Assembly (NCBI GenBank): GCA_016215465.1
Contig: JACRJT010000021.1
Location: 1-64,000, forward strand
DNA from: Nitrososphaerota archaeon
Lineage (GTDB): Archaea > Thermoproteota > Nitrososphaeria > Nitrososphaerales > Nitrosopumilaceae
DNA length: 64,000 nt
Direction: 5' to 3'
The notes below the pieces were generated by a model that was not told the origin of the DNA, ran no database searches, and worked only from the letters and a program-made list of their open reading frames with translations. This document shows positions 754 through 14,132 of this stretch, piece by piece. The position numbers and the translations under genes were made by a program. Every line of letters begins with the position of its first letter. The stretch's first letter is position 1.

Positions 754-2076
754 ATGTTTGCTCCAAGCAACCTTTTTTCTTTTTTAATAAAAATACTGTC
801 AAGTTTACCGGAAAAATTTCGCATGTTTGTTACAGGTAGTGTAATTGGAATCTATAGCTTAGTTTTATATAAAATGTTTCCAGGACTTTTGTTTGATATC
901 AATAATTCTGTATTTTATTTTGTAATTCCAGTAAGCGTCACAGCTTCTATAATGATCGTATTGCCAAAATTAACGATCAAAAATAAATCAAGTATGCAAA
1001 ACATAGCGTCTGCTACAAACGATGCTGATTCTCTATTAAATGAGTTAATCACAGAGCCATCACAACCAGCTACTCAAGATACTACCGTGCCGCCACAGGA
1101 AGAGAAAATTGATGTCTCTGCAATTGGGGGCAACAATTCTGAGCTTGATGCATTACTTGCAGGTACTAATTTGGCTAGTGATGACACCATAACTACTGAT
1201 CAGGTCAGTGTCACTCCCATAATGACAGGATTTGACGAGAATAAAATTCGTGATCTAATTGACCAAAAATTCGAACCAGTAGAAAAAGATCTTACCACCT
1301 TCAAAAAGGATCTAAACAAAATCAAAGAAGACATGAAAATAACAAAGGAAAGTGTTGATACTCTAACCGAATCGTTTGAAGGAACACTAACTGACATGAA
1401 AGCATTTCAGGCCGAAATTTCAAATCCGCTTAATTTCATGAGAAAATACTTTGAGGCACTAGATCTCTCAAACTTGTCAGATCCATCATTACCATTACGA
1501 CAGGGAGTATTGCAAGCAAATCTGAATGTACAAAACAATCAAGCGTCTAATAACCAAGCCCAAAATGTAGCAGCGCCTATTACACAAGTTCAAAGCAATC
1601 CAATACCCGTAATGGTACAAAATCATGGTACAAACCCCCCAACAGCTACCTCACCCCCAAACCCGCCAACAGCAATAGTTCGAGGCAGTGAAATGGATAA
1701 CCTTGTACATGGAACAGACCTTGGGCCGATGGACTCCGTAATGAAGCCGCTATTTAATGGAAATCTCTCTGTTGCAAACATGATGGCCATAATCGAGCTT
1801 GTGGGAGAGATGTTTGAAGAAAAAGGGGATGATTGCATAGATCTACTAGTAGAACAATGCAAACTAATGGGACTAAAGGCAGAAGACGAACATACCATTT
1901 ACAACATTATAGACATGCTCAAGAACTCTGGCATGTCAACTGAGGAATCAATATCACAATTATACAGATTTGCAAAAATTGTTGGGCTCAATGACCGAGA
2001 GGCAGATGCTTATTATGCAAGACTGACTGCGCATAAAAAAACTGGCACAAGACGTGACCACTCAAGGAGTGAATAA
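754..2076 (+). CDS. Membrane-anchored archaellum scaffold (ArlX/ArlCDE-like) with two FliM-like peptides
   Basis: Fills the operon slot where other archaea encode ArlC/D/E (Euryarchaeota) or ArlX (Crenarchaeota), the cytoplasmic ring around the motor. The 440-aa product shows two predicted membrane helices (about 22-43 and 51-72), a Pro/Thr-rich linker, a coiled coil (about 150-215) ending in a conserved-looking 'NPLNFMRKY' segment, a low-complexity Gln/Asn/Pro stretch (about 250-308) and a helical C-terminal domain (about 325-430) that weakly resembles the Arch_fla_DE domain. Two short motifs, S129-L140 (SELDALLAGTNL) and S312-L323 (SEMDNLVHGTDL), resemble the CheY-binding peptide of bacterial FliM/FliY. 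Family assignment is by position and architecture, so moderate; that it is part of the archaellum is likely. Start ATG 754 has GGAGTGAT just upstream. Confidence 0.7.
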   Translation: MFAPSNLFSFLIKILSSLPEKFRMFVTGSVIGIYSLVLYKMFPGLLFDINNSVFYFVIPVSVTASIMIVLPKLTIKNKSSMQNIASATNDADSLLNELITEPSQPATQDTTVPPQEEKIDVSAIGGNNSELDALLAGTNLASDDTITTDQVSVTPIMTGFDENKIRDLIDQKFEPVEKDLTTFKKDLNKIKEDMKITKESVDTLTESFEGTLTDMKAFQAEISNPLNFMRKYFEALDLSNLSDPSLPLRQGVLQANLNVQNNQASNNQAQNVAAPITQVQSNPIPVMVQNHGTNPPTATSPPNPPTAIVRGSEMDNLVHGTDLGPMDSVMKPLFNGNLSVANMMAIIELVGEMFEEKGDDCIDLLVEQCKLMGLKAEDEHTIYNIIDMLKNSGMSTEESISQLYRFAKIVGLNDREADAYYARLTAHKKTGTRRDHSRSE

Positions 2077-7171: not shown

Positions 7172-7825
7172 ATGATGGTACAAACTATTTCAGATTCTAT
7201 GCAGGTTGTATCGTTTAACATAATCAACTCTTCTGGCAAGAAAGAAGATTACGCAGTTCCAATTGAACAGGTGCGAGAAATACGCGCAGTTGAAAAAATT
7301 ACCAAAGTTCCTCACTCTGAACCTCACGTCAAGGGAATAATGAATCTCCGAGGATTGATAATTCCAGTAATTGACGTAAAGGAGAAACTTGGACTTGATT
7401 CTGTGAGCACCAATTCTTCAAAGCAGCGAATTTTGGTTGCAGAGGTAAACAACTCACTTACTGGCCTTCTCGTAGATGAAGTAGATCAAGTAATGAGAAT
7501 TCAGACAAAGGATATCGAGCCTGCACCTCAGGGAGCACTGGAGTCACGCAATTATGTAAAGGGTGTTGCAAAGATCAACGAAAAACTGATGATTCTTTTG
7601 GATGTGGGCCTCTTACTTCCATCAAACAAAACAGAAAATACCCACAAATCAAGCACTTTTCACAGGGAATCAAAACCCTTGGAAAAACCACAATTAGTTG
7701 AGAACTCTTGTCCTAAAAACACTGAAAGCCCAGGCGACATTCCGCCAGAATTAGCCGCAGTGTTTAAAGAAGATGCGGAAGGAATTCCCCCAACCCAAAT
7801 AATTAGAGAAGAAACAACTCCGTAG
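7172..7825 (+). CDS. cheW: Chemotaxis coupling protein CheW, copy 1 (with C-terminal tail)
   Basis: SH3-like adaptor that links receptors to CheA in chemosensory arrays. The CheW domain covers about residues 8-152, with the typical 'YAVPIEQVREIRAVEKITKVP', 'VKGIMNLRG' and 'IPVIDVKEKLGL' segments. Residues 153-217 form a charged Pro/Ser tail absent from copy 2 (13255-13755). Nucleotides 7361-7560 differ from 13444-13643 at only 3 of 200 positions while flanking parts differ clearly, a mark of gene conversion. It opens the chemotaxis island directly after the archaellum operon. Confidence 0.93.
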   Translation: MMVQTISDSMQVVSFNIINSSGKKEDYAVPIEQVREIRAVEKITKVPHSEPHVKGIMNLRGLIIPVIDVKEKLGLDSVSTNSSKQRILVAEVNNSLTGLLVDEVDQVMRIQTKDIEPAPQGALESRNYVKGVAKINEKLMILLDVGLLLPSNKTENTHKSSTFHRESKPLEKPQLVENSCPKNTESPGDIPPELAAVFKEDAEGIPPTQIIREETTP

Positions 7826-7925: not shown

Positions 7926-8192
7926 ATGGCTTTGTACATGTCGTTTAAGATGCCAAAACTTGAGGATATCTATGACAAAATTGAATCCGAAGAAAACAAA
8001 CCCATGAGCCAGGCAGACGGATATCAATGGGGACTTGATTACCTAGGTGACACGATCAGACAGCTTGAGAAGCTAGAGCAAAAGGCTTTGGCAAAAAACG
8101 ATCCAACATTCTACAATAATGTCAAGATATCAATGCAGAGAGCACAACATGCACAAAAAGAACTCCAAGATAAGCTAGCCAAAATAAAATAA
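7926..8192 (+). CDS. Small helical protein of unknown function in the chemotaxis island
   Basis: An 88-aa, highly charged, probably all-helical protein; no membrane segment and no cysteine. The N-terminus could begin at ATG 7926 or at internal Met codons 5 or 9 (MPKLEDIYDKIESEE). It sits alone between cheW1 and cheB with its own AT-rich upstream region (TTAATATT, 7910-7917). I do not recognise the family. The helix-loop-helix look (DGYQWGLDYLGDTIRQLEKLEQKAL) would suit a coiled-coil or scaffold role, but its location is the only hint of a link to chemotaxis or motility. Confidence 0.6.
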   Translation: MALYMSFKMPKLEDIYDKIESEENKPMSQADGYQWGLDYLGDTIRQLEKLEQKALAKNDPTFYNNVKISMQRAQHAQKELQDKLAKIK

Positions 8193-9455: not shown

Positions 9456-10989
9456 TTACAGAGAGATGTATGTTTCAGAGGCACTGGAGCACGTTGAAAC
9501 AATCAATGATACATTGCTAAAACTAGAAGAAGAACCAGATAAGAAAGAACACCTGGATCTGATATTTCGTTCCGCTCATACAATTAAGGGAATGTCAGCA
9601 ACAATGGGATATGATGATACAAGAGAATTATGTAAAAACATTGAAAACATCTTTGACAACATCAGAAAAGGACAGGAAAAACTCACTCCAAACCTGGCAA
9701 GTGCGTTATTCAAATGTATAGATCTTTTGCGTGAAATGATTGCGGATGAGAAAAAGAAGGTTGATCTAAAACCATACCTTCAGATGCTTGAACATCCAGA
9801 TGACGCTCAAGTTGATGTGGCTGAACCGACAAACAGCACCAAATCTCCGACAATACGAGTAAAAATGTTAGATCTTGACTCACTGGTTAATCTTGTCGGC
9901 GAGCTTGTTATATCTAAAATGAGACTTGAGCAAACCCTGAGTCACAATGGCTCAGATGACGCTCGTCAAGTCATGACGGAGCTTGACAGACTTGTCACGG
10001 ATCTGCAATATCAATCAATGAAGCTCAGACTTGTACCAATAGATCAAATCTTTAGTCGATTTACAAGACTTGTACGGGATACATCAACTGGACTTGGCAA
10101 ACAAGTTAATCTGATCATGGATGGTTCGGGAATAGAACTTGATCGAACCGTTCTGGATGCAATAACTGATCCTCTATTACACATTCTACGAAACTGTGTA
10201 GATCATGGGATTGAAATACCACAAGAAAGGGAATCAAATGAAAAATCTCCAATGGGCACAATCAAGCTTACTGCATACGGTGTGGGAGATCAGGTTGCAA
10301 TCAAAATTGAAGATGATGGCAGGGGAATCAATACTGATAGGCTCAAGGCAAAAGCAGTAGAAAAGAAGCTCATCACACAGGATGAAGCAGACAAGATGTC
10401 AATTGATGAAGCAATCAATCTCTTGGGAACTCCTGGACTCTCAACAGCCAAAGAAGTCACAGACGTTTCTGGAAGGGGAGTAGGAATGGACGTGGTGATA
10501 ACCCAAGTTGAAGCAGTAGGTGGTAATGTAAAAATCACAACCGAACGTGGAAAGGGAACTACAATTGTCCTGACAATCCCGCTTAGCGTATCTATTATTG
10601 GTGGACTACTGATTAATGTATCCGGGGACAAGTATGTTCTACCACTTTCAAGTATTTCGACCACAGTGGTAGTTGAAGCAAATCAAATCAAAAGCATACA
10701 TGGGCAAGAGGCAATTGTATTGCGCGAACAGGTTGTCCCATTAGTCAGAGTATCAAAACTACTCGGCATGCAAGAAACTGAGTCAAACGATACCGACAAG
10801 ATAACAATAGTAATTGTCAACAAGGGAGGAAAGCCCTATGGACTTGTTGTAGATTCATACGATAGAAAGCAAGAAATTGTAATTAAACGACTAAACAACG
10901 AAACACATTCATCGGATCTGTTCACTAATGCAACAATTCTTGGTGATGGAAGCGTTGCATTAATCCTTGATCCGGCACTGTTGGTATAG
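9442..10989 (+). CDS. cheA: Chemotaxis histidine kinase CheA (no P2 domain)
   Basis: Central kinase of the chemosensory array; transfers phosphate to CheY and CheB. The 515-aa product has a P1 Hpt domain with phospho-His46 (RSAHTIKG), then directly the P3 dimerisation helices (about 140-215), a P4 ATPase with N box (NCVDHGIE), G1 (DDGRGI) and G2 (GRGVGMD), and a P5 CheW-like domain (about 380-515). Only about 25 residues separate P1 from P3, so there is no P2 CheY-binding domain. The start is TTG 9442, inside cheB; the stop overlaps the GTG of cheC1 by one nucleotide. Confidence 0.95.
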   Translation: MSQNNYREMYVSEALEHVETINDTLLKLEEEPDKKEHLDLIFRSAHTIKGMSATMGYDDTRELCKNIENIFDNIRKGQEKLTPNLASALFKCIDLLREMIADEKKKVDLKPYLQMLEHPDDAQVDVAEPTNSTKSPTIRVKMLDLDSLVNLVGELVISKMRLEQTLSHNGSDDARQVMTELDRLVTDLQYQSMKLRLVPIDQIFSRFTRLVRDTSTGLGKQVNLIMDGSGIELDRTVLDAITDPLLHILRNCVDHGIEIPQERESNEKSPMGTIKLTAYGVGDQVAIKIEDDGRGINTDRLKAKAVEKKLITQDEADKMSIDEAINLLGTPGLSTAKEVTDVSGRGVGMDVVITQVEAVGGNVKITTERGKGTTIVLTIPLSVSIIGGLLINVSGDKYVLPLSSISTTVVVEANQIKSIHGQEAIVLREQVVPLVRVSKLLGMQETESNDTDKITIVIVNKGGKPYGLVVDSYDRKQEIVIKRLNNETHSSDLFTNATILGDGSVALILDPALLV

Positions 10990-11750
10990 TGATTCACATG
11001 GCTGCACTAGTAGGTATAAATTCAGAAGAGGTTCAAAACCTTATCAAAGTATTTGATCAATACATCACATCAAAAACATCCGTGGCACTATCCACACTTT
11101 TGAACGAATCAGTAATTCATAATGTGAAAATTTTGGAATGTGGAATTTCCGATATTAAAGACATTAAGCTAGATCCTGATGAAATTAAAATGTGTGCGGT
11201 AAGATTGAACGGAAAAGGGGACACTCACATCGAAATTCTTTATACTATACAACAAAAACATGCAAAGAAAATAGCAGCAAAACTACTTTGCCAAAATGAA
11301 GTTTGTGAAATTGATGAAATGGGTGCATCTGCAATACAAGAGGTTGCCAATATTATGACCGGTTCTTTCTTCAATGCCTTATCTAACGGTACTGGCTTTC
11401 GAGTCGATCTATCGACCCCAAATTACACAAACGATGAACTGCATTCACTAATAGACACATCAGTTAAGGACATTGCAAAACCAGTTGAGCATGTAGTAAT
11501 AACAGATGTGGAGTTGATCGGAAAACCAAGTGAAACAAAACTACACATGATAATAATGCAAAATACAATGGATGCGCGAAAATTACTCGCTAACCACTCC
11601 GATCAAATTAAAGAGCAACAGTGTATCTTTGGCAAGCAAAACTCTGAGCTTGATGCCTTACTGGACGGCACTGATCTACAATCCTATCCCGTTGGCGGAC
11701 AAAACTCTGAGCTTGACGCTCTAATTAATGATGCACTAAAGGAGAAGTAG
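10989..11750 (+). CDS. cheC: CheC-family CheY phosphatase with two C-terminal SELDAL[LI] peptides
   Basis: CheC family proteins dephosphorylate CheY-P and stimulate CheD. The 253-aa product has the CheC fold with one intact active-site pair in the second half (SAIQEVANIMTGSFFNAL, Glu and Asn). The equivalent first-half helix (LIKVFDQYITSKTSVALS) lacks the Glu/Asn pair. After residue 210 there is an extra tail with two copies of a peptide, S219-L230 (SELDALLDGTDL) and S240-I246 (SELDALI), similar to the motif in the archaellum scaffold at 754-2076 and to the CheY-binding peptide of bacterial FliM/FliY. Start GTG 10989 or ATG 10998. Confidence 0.88.
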   Translation: MIHMAALVGINSEEVQNLIKVFDQYITSKTSVALSTLLNESVIHNVKILECGISDIKDIKLDPDEIKMCAVRLNGKGDTHIEILYTIQQKHAKKIAAKLLCQNEVCEIDEMGASAIQEVANIMTGSFFNALSNGTGFRVDLSTPNYTNDELHSLIDTSVKDIAKPVEHVVITDVELIGKPSETKLHMIIMQNTMDARKLLANHSDQIKEQQCIFGKQNSELDALLDGTDLQSYPVGGQNSELDALINDALKEK

Positions 11751-13254: not shown

Positions 13255-13755
13255 ATGACCGTGCAACTTGTATCCCTTGACGCATTCCAAGTTGTTACTT
13301 TTAGTCTAATGGATAGCCAAAAAAAGGAAAATTATGCAATACCAATTGAACAAATTCGCGAGATCCGTGCAGTTGAATCCATAACAAAAGTACCAAAGGC
13401 AAAATCCTATGTCAAGGGAATAATAAATCTCCGAGGACACATCATTCCAGTAATTGACGTAAAGGAGAAACTTGGACTTGATTCTGTGAGCACCAATTCT
13501 TCAAAGCAGCGAATTTTGGTTGCAGAAGTAAACAACTCACTTACTGGCCTTCTCGTAGATGAAGTAGATCAAGTAATGAGAATTCAGACAAAGGATATCG
13601 AGCCTGCACCTCAGGGAGCGCTGGAGTCACACAATTATGTAAAAGGAATAGCAAAATCAGATGAAAAATTGATTGTTCTATTAGATGTGGCAAAATTACT
13701 TGATGACTCCTCTTTTGCTATTACAGAAGCGATACAGGGAGGAAATCAGCAATGA
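13255..13755 (+). CDS. cheW: Chemotaxis coupling protein CheW, copy 2
   Basis: A 166-aa single-domain CheW without the tail of copy 1. The central 200 nt (13444-13643) are nearly identical to copy 1 (7361-7560; 3 differences), while the N-terminal ~60 codons and the last ~40 codons differ clearly. Both copies thus present the same central surface but different edges, perhaps for different receptor or CheA contacts. It overlaps cheY by 4 nt (ATGA), so the two are translationally coupled. Confidence 0.94.
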   Translation: MTVQLVSLDAFQVVTFSLMDSQKKENYAIPIEQIREIRAVESITKVPKAKSYVKGIINLRGHIIPVIDVKEKLGLDSVSTNSSKQRILVAEVNNSLTGLLVDEVDQVMRIQTKDIEPAPQGALESHNYVKGIAKSDEKLIVLLDVAKLLDDSSFAITEAIQGGNQQ

Positions 13756-14132
13756 GTTACGGTGCCAAAAAAATTCTCGTAGTTGATGATGCTTCGTTTA
13801 TGAGAACTGTCTTAAAAGACATTGTCAAAGGAAATGGCCTTGCTACCGAAGTGATCGAGGCAGCAGATGGTGTTGAAGGAGTGAAGGCATATCAAACACA
13901 AAAACCAGATCTTGTAACAATGGATGTGAACATGCCAAGAGCTGATGGAATTCAAGCATTACGCGCTATTATGAAAATTGATCCCTCTGCAAAGGTAGTA
14001 ATGGTCACATCTGTAGAACAAAAACAAATTGTTCAAGACGCAATGAAAATTGGAGCAAGAGATTACATTGTAAAACCATTTGACAGAAGTAATGTGGGTC
14101 TTGTACTAAACAAGGTTATGAGACAAAAATAG
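13752..14132 (+). CDS. cheY: Chemotaxis response regulator CheY
   Basis: Single-domain receiver, 126 aa, that carries the phosphoryl signal from CheA to the motor. All catalytic residues are present: acidic pair Asp12/Asp13 (LVVDDAS), phosphoacceptor Asp58 (TMDVNMP), Thr in VMVTS and Lys in YIVKPF. It lies between cheW2 and cheC2, so kinase adaptor, output and phosphatase are co-transcribed. In Euryarchaeota CheY reaches the archaellum through CheF; no CheF-like gene is recognised in this window. Confidence 0.95.
   Translation: MSYGAKKILVVDDASFMRTVLKDIVKGNGLATEVIEAADGVEGVKAYQTQKPDLVTMDVNMPRADGIQALRAIMKIDPSAKVVMVTSVEQKQIVQDAMKIGARDYIVKPFDRSNVGLVLNKVMRQK

Follow-up and report, generated by a model that had tools for sequence, protein, structure and literature searches.

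The FliM and FliY proteins of bacteria begin with a peptide of the EIDALL type, a short helix on a flexible part of the cytoplasmic motor ring with the common core (S/A)E(I/L)DALLxG, whose ligand is the response regulator CheY. A second mode of docking is found in CheZ of E. coli, a phosphatase of phosphorylated CheY (CheY-P) with a flexible C-terminal tether that ends in an acidic-hydrophobic CheY-docking helix and presents CheY-P to the active site of CheZ. In FliY of Bacillus and Thermotoga, the EIDALL peptide is combined with a CheC-like phosphatase domain. The EIDALL motif of bacterial FliM has been described in the CheF structure paper, and the two-step FliM model provides a precedent for docking followed by a second contact (PMC9126983). 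In Euryarchaeota the same job, linking CheY-P to the archaellum ring, is performed by CheF, which binds CheY near the phosphorylation site and not in the FliM groove (PMC9126983) and is exclusive to Euryarchaea (PMC6718144). Crenarchaeota possess ArlX, a membrane-anchored cytosolic archaellum scaffold, and have no chemotaxis (PMC8978795). Using profile methods, Makarova et al. reported that all archaellated archaea have divergent FlaC/D/E-like components (PMC4858521), a 2022 review called the thaumarchaeal scaffold unidentified (PMC8978795), and a 2025 paper found CheF absent from Chloroflexota archaella, where another component may serve (PMC12488501). We found no report of the peptide in an archaellum in the open-licence literature, where the term EIDALL was found only in the CheF structure paper, for bacterial FliM, although an earlier notice elsewhere is possible.

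The window analysed here, a stretch of 64,000 nucleotides, comes from a 1.7-Mb genome that belongs to the genus Candidatus Nitrosotenuis by its named relatives. The archaellum motor scaffold gene (754..2076, + strand) is preceded by an archaellin-like gene (21-737) and followed by arlG, arlF, arlH, arlI and arlJ, after which come cheW1, the gene of an 88-aa protein, cheB, cheA, cheC1, cheD, cheR, cheW2, cheY and cheC2. The 88-aa protein (7926-8192), apparently helical and a candidate adaptor, is kept in the islands of Nitrosotenuis, g6 and Nitrosotalea and had no significant Pfam match. CheW1 has a long C-terminal tail (7736-7810) with a peptide, DIPPELAAVFKEDxxGIPPTQIIRE, that is kept in g1, g5 and g49 and takes the form of a PEI(D/E)xxI variant in g6 and g3, while the CheW of Nitrosotalea has no tail; this may be another docking motif that the clade acquired. 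Two related genomes, G051 (L035:4123 onward) and G189 (L082:5708 onward), have long frames of 793 and 864 aa matching the arlF profile between arlF and arlH.

The scaffold protein (440 aa) appears, from PF24151 (ArlX) matches of its homologues and from AlphaFold2, to be a divergent ArlX-like component, membrane-anchored and cytosolic as ArlX is. The Pfam link is weak: PF24151 was matched by 12 of 20 scaffold homologues, the best at 3.6e-6, with the individual matches seen falling short of the curated 28.7-bit cut-off; the scaffold protein of the window had no PF24151 match. A fold search with the model found no PDB match below E 0.5. From its N-terminus, the protein consists of a membrane hairpin, a disordered linker carrying a peptide, a coiled coil, the conserved NPLNFMRKYF, a second linker and a helical C-terminal domain. 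The hairpin (residues 20-76; 811..981, + strand) is predicted from AlphaFold2 helices H20-41 and H49-76 and from its hydrophobic sequence, and the coiled coil with the conserved FQAEIxNPLNFMRKYF segment (1237..1452, + strand) corresponds to helix H162-223 (pLDDT 73-92), with a column identity of 0.95. In the model, whose overall confidence is low (pTM 0.28), the second linker is disordered as well and gives way to the helical C-terminal domain. Both linkers evolve fast and have a high content of S, T, D, P and N. In the g6 scaffolds (L052:16992-18356, L053:17216-18595) the second linker contains long tandem repeats of PVVQE, and most of the C-terminal domain that Nitrosotenuis has is gone.

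The initial annotation had proposed that four similar peptides occur in the scaffold and in CheC1, and translation of the two reading frames located all of them. The first, SELDALLAGTNL (1138..1173, + strand), occupies scaffold residues 129-140 in the disordered linker; the second, SEMDNLVHGTDL (1687..1722, + strand), occupies residues 312-323 and adjoins the C-terminal domain; and the remaining two, SELDALLDGTDL (11643..11678, + strand) and SELDALINDALK (11706..11741, + strand), lie in the CheC1 tail and at the CheC1 C-terminus, the latter including SELDALI (11706-11726). That the copies are alike holds for those at 1138, 11643 and 11706 but not for that at 1687, which ranked 6 and 23 in the two matrix scans described below and, on its sequence, is best called a weaker variant of the peptide. 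This variant is kept across the genus Nitrosotenuis and partly in G051. An additional candidate, DADSLLNELI (1021-1050), was rejected as a fifth copy, its matrix score being at background; it coincides with the second isolated predicted helix (93-99) of the scaffold linker and is kept in kind across g1, g5 and g40.

Searches of the whole 1.7-Mb genome with a looser degenerate DNA pattern, xE(L/I/M/F)(D/E)AL(x), gave 4 matches, three of them the copies at 1138, 11643 and 11706 and the fourth inside a 17-codon frame that is no gene, while the reversed control pattern gave 0 matches over the same genome. The same three copies were the only matches genome-wide to a stricter DNA pattern, NSE(L/I/M)D(A/S..)L (3/3 in scaffold or CheC1). 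Two matrices were then scanned across every ORF in the 64 kb (33,186 windows). With the first, trained solely on scaffold copies of a different genus, the copies at 1138, 11643 and 11706 ranked 1, 2 and 3; with the second, made from three bacterial FliM/FliY N-termini, of which the enterobacterial one was confirmed in the PDB, the 11643 and 1138 copies were joint first. These results confirmed that the occurrence of the peptide exceeds chance by a wide margin.

A profile of the archaeal peptides searched against 177,635 PDB sequences gave two hits at E <= 10. One was FliM residues 9-24 (AEIDALLNG), matched in register as a single stretch with an E of 0.57; the other was spurious, produced by the summing of repeats. 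Summed repeats also accounted for the designed armadillo repeats retrieved from the PDB by single-peptide phmmer, and no PDB match was obtained with a profile built from the degenerate CheC1 tails. The archaeal peptides have an EIDALL-type core in register with the FliM N-terminus (FliM_N). In both host proteins they are predicted to be short helices on flexible segments, copy 1 (1138-1173) being modelled by AlphaFold2 as an isolated helix (129-136) within a linker of pLDDT < 50. The ligand proposed for them is that of the FliM/FliY peptide, CheY. The archaeal peptides differ from those of FliM and FliY in their host, an ArlX-like scaffold without the FliM fold, in being internal and not N-terminal, and in occurring in 1-5 copies; the FliM/FliN C-terminal domain (FliMN_C, PF01052) had 0 matches in the genome.

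The second host, CheC1 (10989..11750, + strand), is a member of the CheC family of CheY-P phosphatases (PF04509, E 4.5e-11) with a C-terminal tail. Its fold matches include CheC (1xkr, 1.4e-13) and FliY (4hyn, 2e-11), within the CheC/FliY/CheX fold class, and the CheC catalytic signature SxxxExxN (S114, E118, N121; 11328..11351, + strand) is invariant in 37/37 aligned CheC1/CheC2 homologues. Judged by alignment and model, CheC1 is a genuine CheC whose catalytic signature is intact. AlphaFold2 predicted a confident CheC fold over residues 12-202 followed by a disordered tail (pLDDT about 42), in which helices H215-225 and H240-251 cover or overlap both peptides. The pairing of a CheC fold with the peptide recalls FliY, whose structure 4hyn was among the top fold matches, although in CheC1 the peptide is at the C-terminus and the FliN domain (PF01052) is lacking. 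The tail is better compared with the C-terminal CheY-binding tail of CheZ. The tail end in genome G090, NDAIDDLLKNL, resembles on inspection the end of CheZ, QVDDLLDSLGF. Unlike CheZ, CheC1 has a CheC catalytic domain and not a helical bundle, and CheZ (PF04344) had 0 matches in the genome, so that the comparison with CheZ is one of analogy.

Among 400 Nitrososphaeria genomes, 56 had scaffold homologues and 56 had CheA. As the docking proposal anticipated, the motif, with the consensus NSE(I/L)DALLxGT, is kept in both the scaffold and CheC1 across a clade of Nitrosopumilaceae. It is present in the scaffold linker in g1 (Nitrosotenuis), g3, g5, g6, g40 and g49 and in the CheC1 tail in g1, g5, g49 and four g6 genomes. 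Seven g6/g3 genomes have instead a CheC1 tail variant of the GGxNxAIDDLL type, the first acidic residue of the tail motif being lost in part of the clade. In Nitrosotalea (g8) and Nitrosocaldus (g10) the motif is absent from both proteins and CheC1 ends directly after the fold, without a tail; Nitrososphaera-type genomes (g38) have a scaffold linker without the motif and a tail-less CheC of a second type. Among the genomes in which scaffold and CheC1 genes were both seen, 15 had the motif in the two proteins, 6 had it in the scaffold and a degenerate form of it in the CheC1 tail, 11 lacked it in both, and 0 had it in CheC1 without having it in the scaffold. The motif clade formed a single branch of the CheA tree, with 100% support. 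One genome outside this branch, G076, has the scaffold motif NAELDALV and a tail-less CheC, and another, G268, labelled g1 but placed elsewhere by its CheA, lacks the motif. Given this single branch (plus G076), the co-occurrence reflects mostly one evolutionary event and cannot be counted as many. Within the motif clade, column identity was 0.78 for the motif and 0.53 for the surrounding linker, so the peptide is kept while the linker drifts. The scaffold has between 1 and 5 copies per protein and CheC1 between 1 and 3, as expected for docking motifs; for CheC1 the copy number differs even between close species, the window having two and both G282 and G377 three.

Confinement of the motif to the two genes had been put forward as a check, and it was strictly true of the window's own genome (the 3/3 strict matches above), whereas relatives had stray matches in housekeeping proteins. 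Outside the two genes, the pattern matched RPA-like, carboxylase, aldehyde dehydrogenase and similar proteins of these relatives, and some non-coding frames. The recurrent NSEIDAL matches in genus g3 were 40-codon frames and no genes, and two further peptides, SEFDALL of RPA-like proteins and SEFDAMLNGG of KaiC-like ArlH relatives, look unrelated. The motif is nearly confined to the scaffold and CheC1 genes, as these surveys support.

The initial annotation had recognised no CheF-like gene in the island, and this was borne out for the whole genome and class: the CheF family PF04283 had 0 matches in the window's genome, in 400 Nitrososphaeria genomes and in 20 further CheD-bearing Thermoproteota genomes, while control euryarchaea were matched, in agreement with the restriction of CheF to Euryarchaea noted above. 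The further idea that the motif tracks the absence of CheF failed, since every Thermoproteota genome examined was without CheF and yet most CheA-/CheD-bearing lineages were without the motif. The motif-less che-bearing Thermoproteota comprised Nitrosotalea, Nitrosocaldus, Nitrososphaera and other classes. A role of the motif as a general CheF substitute is ruled out by these CheF-less relatives in other families, which carry che genes without it. In the genomes sampled, CheF is missing throughout the phylum; the peptide is specific to one clade and is that clade's own solution, given that the che islands of other Thermoproteota families are without it, and the remaining CheF-less lineages must couple CheY to the motor by other means. 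In Nitrosotalea a divergent receiver-domain gene adjoins arlJ, away from the che island (L041:11369-11785; also L097, L099, L101 and L106), and may give this genus a route of its own to the motor.

The proposed partner, CheY (13752..14132, + strand), has T. maritima CheY (4iga, 2.9e-32) as its best PDB match. In the E. coli CheY-FliM_N complex, I95, A99 and Y106 of CheY contact I11 and L14 of FliM, K119 contacts D12, and K122 contacts residue 16 (PMC3774744). The equivalent positions of the window CheY are V95, M99, Y106, V119 and K122. By this alignment the FliM groove is partly kept, with the hydrophobic pocket (95, 99, 106) and K122 retained and the K119 salt bridge with FliM D12 gone; T. 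maritima CheY is also without K119, having A there. The groove residues are kept in motif-less lineages as well. Position 99 was M in 21/22 motif-bearing genomes and I or L in 18/18 motif-less ones, a suggestive pattern that is confounded by phylogeny and contradicted by the M of the motif-less G268.

Taken together, we consider it probable that the peptides are FliM_N-type docking motifs for CheY-P, which they would recruit to the ArlX-like ring and to CheC1. The scaffold peptides, borne on a flexible cytoplasmic linker, would capture CheY-P through the alpha4-beta5-alpha5 face and enrich it near the motor; the sense of rotation would be biased in a later step, by a second contact of CheY-P with the ring. 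The CheC1 tail, as a C-terminal tether like that of CheZ, would hold CheY-P by this face as well and deliver it to the active site of CheC for dephosphorylation, so that the motor and CheC1 would compete for that one face. We infer binding of the peptides to CheY, its dependence on phosphorylation and its effect on rotation. Convergence with FliM_N is the best explanation for the presence of the peptides in the archaeal scaffold and CheC1.

Alternatively, the shared peptide might bind another partner (CheD, CheA, CheW, ArlH or the 88-aa protein), placing CheC1 at the motor or array, with CheY coupled otherwise. We regard this as rather unlikely. CheD binds CheC in T. maritima (2f9z), but cheD is missing from several motif-bearing islands, such as L051, and G051 and G090 are without any CheD match genome-wide; the 88-aa protein, conserved as it is, could be an adaptor, but it is present in motif-less Nitrosotalea too. 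A related acidic-hydrophobic peptide is conserved in the CheW1 tail of this clade, but the specific sequence likeness of the shared peptide points to the CheY-binding peptide of FliM. It is less probable still that the motif is an assembly element, the scaffold peptides packing on each other or on parts of the ring or receptor array and their likeness to FliM_N being coincidental: up to five copies in one protein and the position of the 1687 copy beside the conserved C-terminal domain would suit such a role, which is hard to reconcile with the same peptide in the tail of a CheY-P phosphatase and with the disordered segments in which AlphaFold2 leaves it. Finally, that functionless acidic-hydrophobic heptads arose by chance in low-complexity linkers, as their fast evolution and high content of S, T, D, P and N might allow, is very improbable, since the motif columns are conserved and the linker is not, all three strict genome-wide matches fall in two genes, and g8 and g10 are without the motif in both proteins.

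Returning to docking of CheY-P, the broader reading that we favour, with somewhat less assurance than docking itself, is that FliM/CheZ-type docking of CheY, as used by bacteria, arose independently in one lineage of ammonia-oxidising archaea, where it was added to an unrelated rotary motor and to a CheC phosphatase. The outcome would be a switch that works without CheF, with motor and phosphatase competing for CheY-P by way of one multivalent short linear motif. For the route from CheY to the archaellum in lineages without CheF, which is the sole adaptor known from archaea, the proposal offers short, synthesizable peptides with a named partner. If true, two unrelated rotary motors would have gained a signalling peptide by convergence, and this would be evidence that the bacterial-type face of CheY is still usable in archaea, whereas euryarchaeal CheY uses another face.
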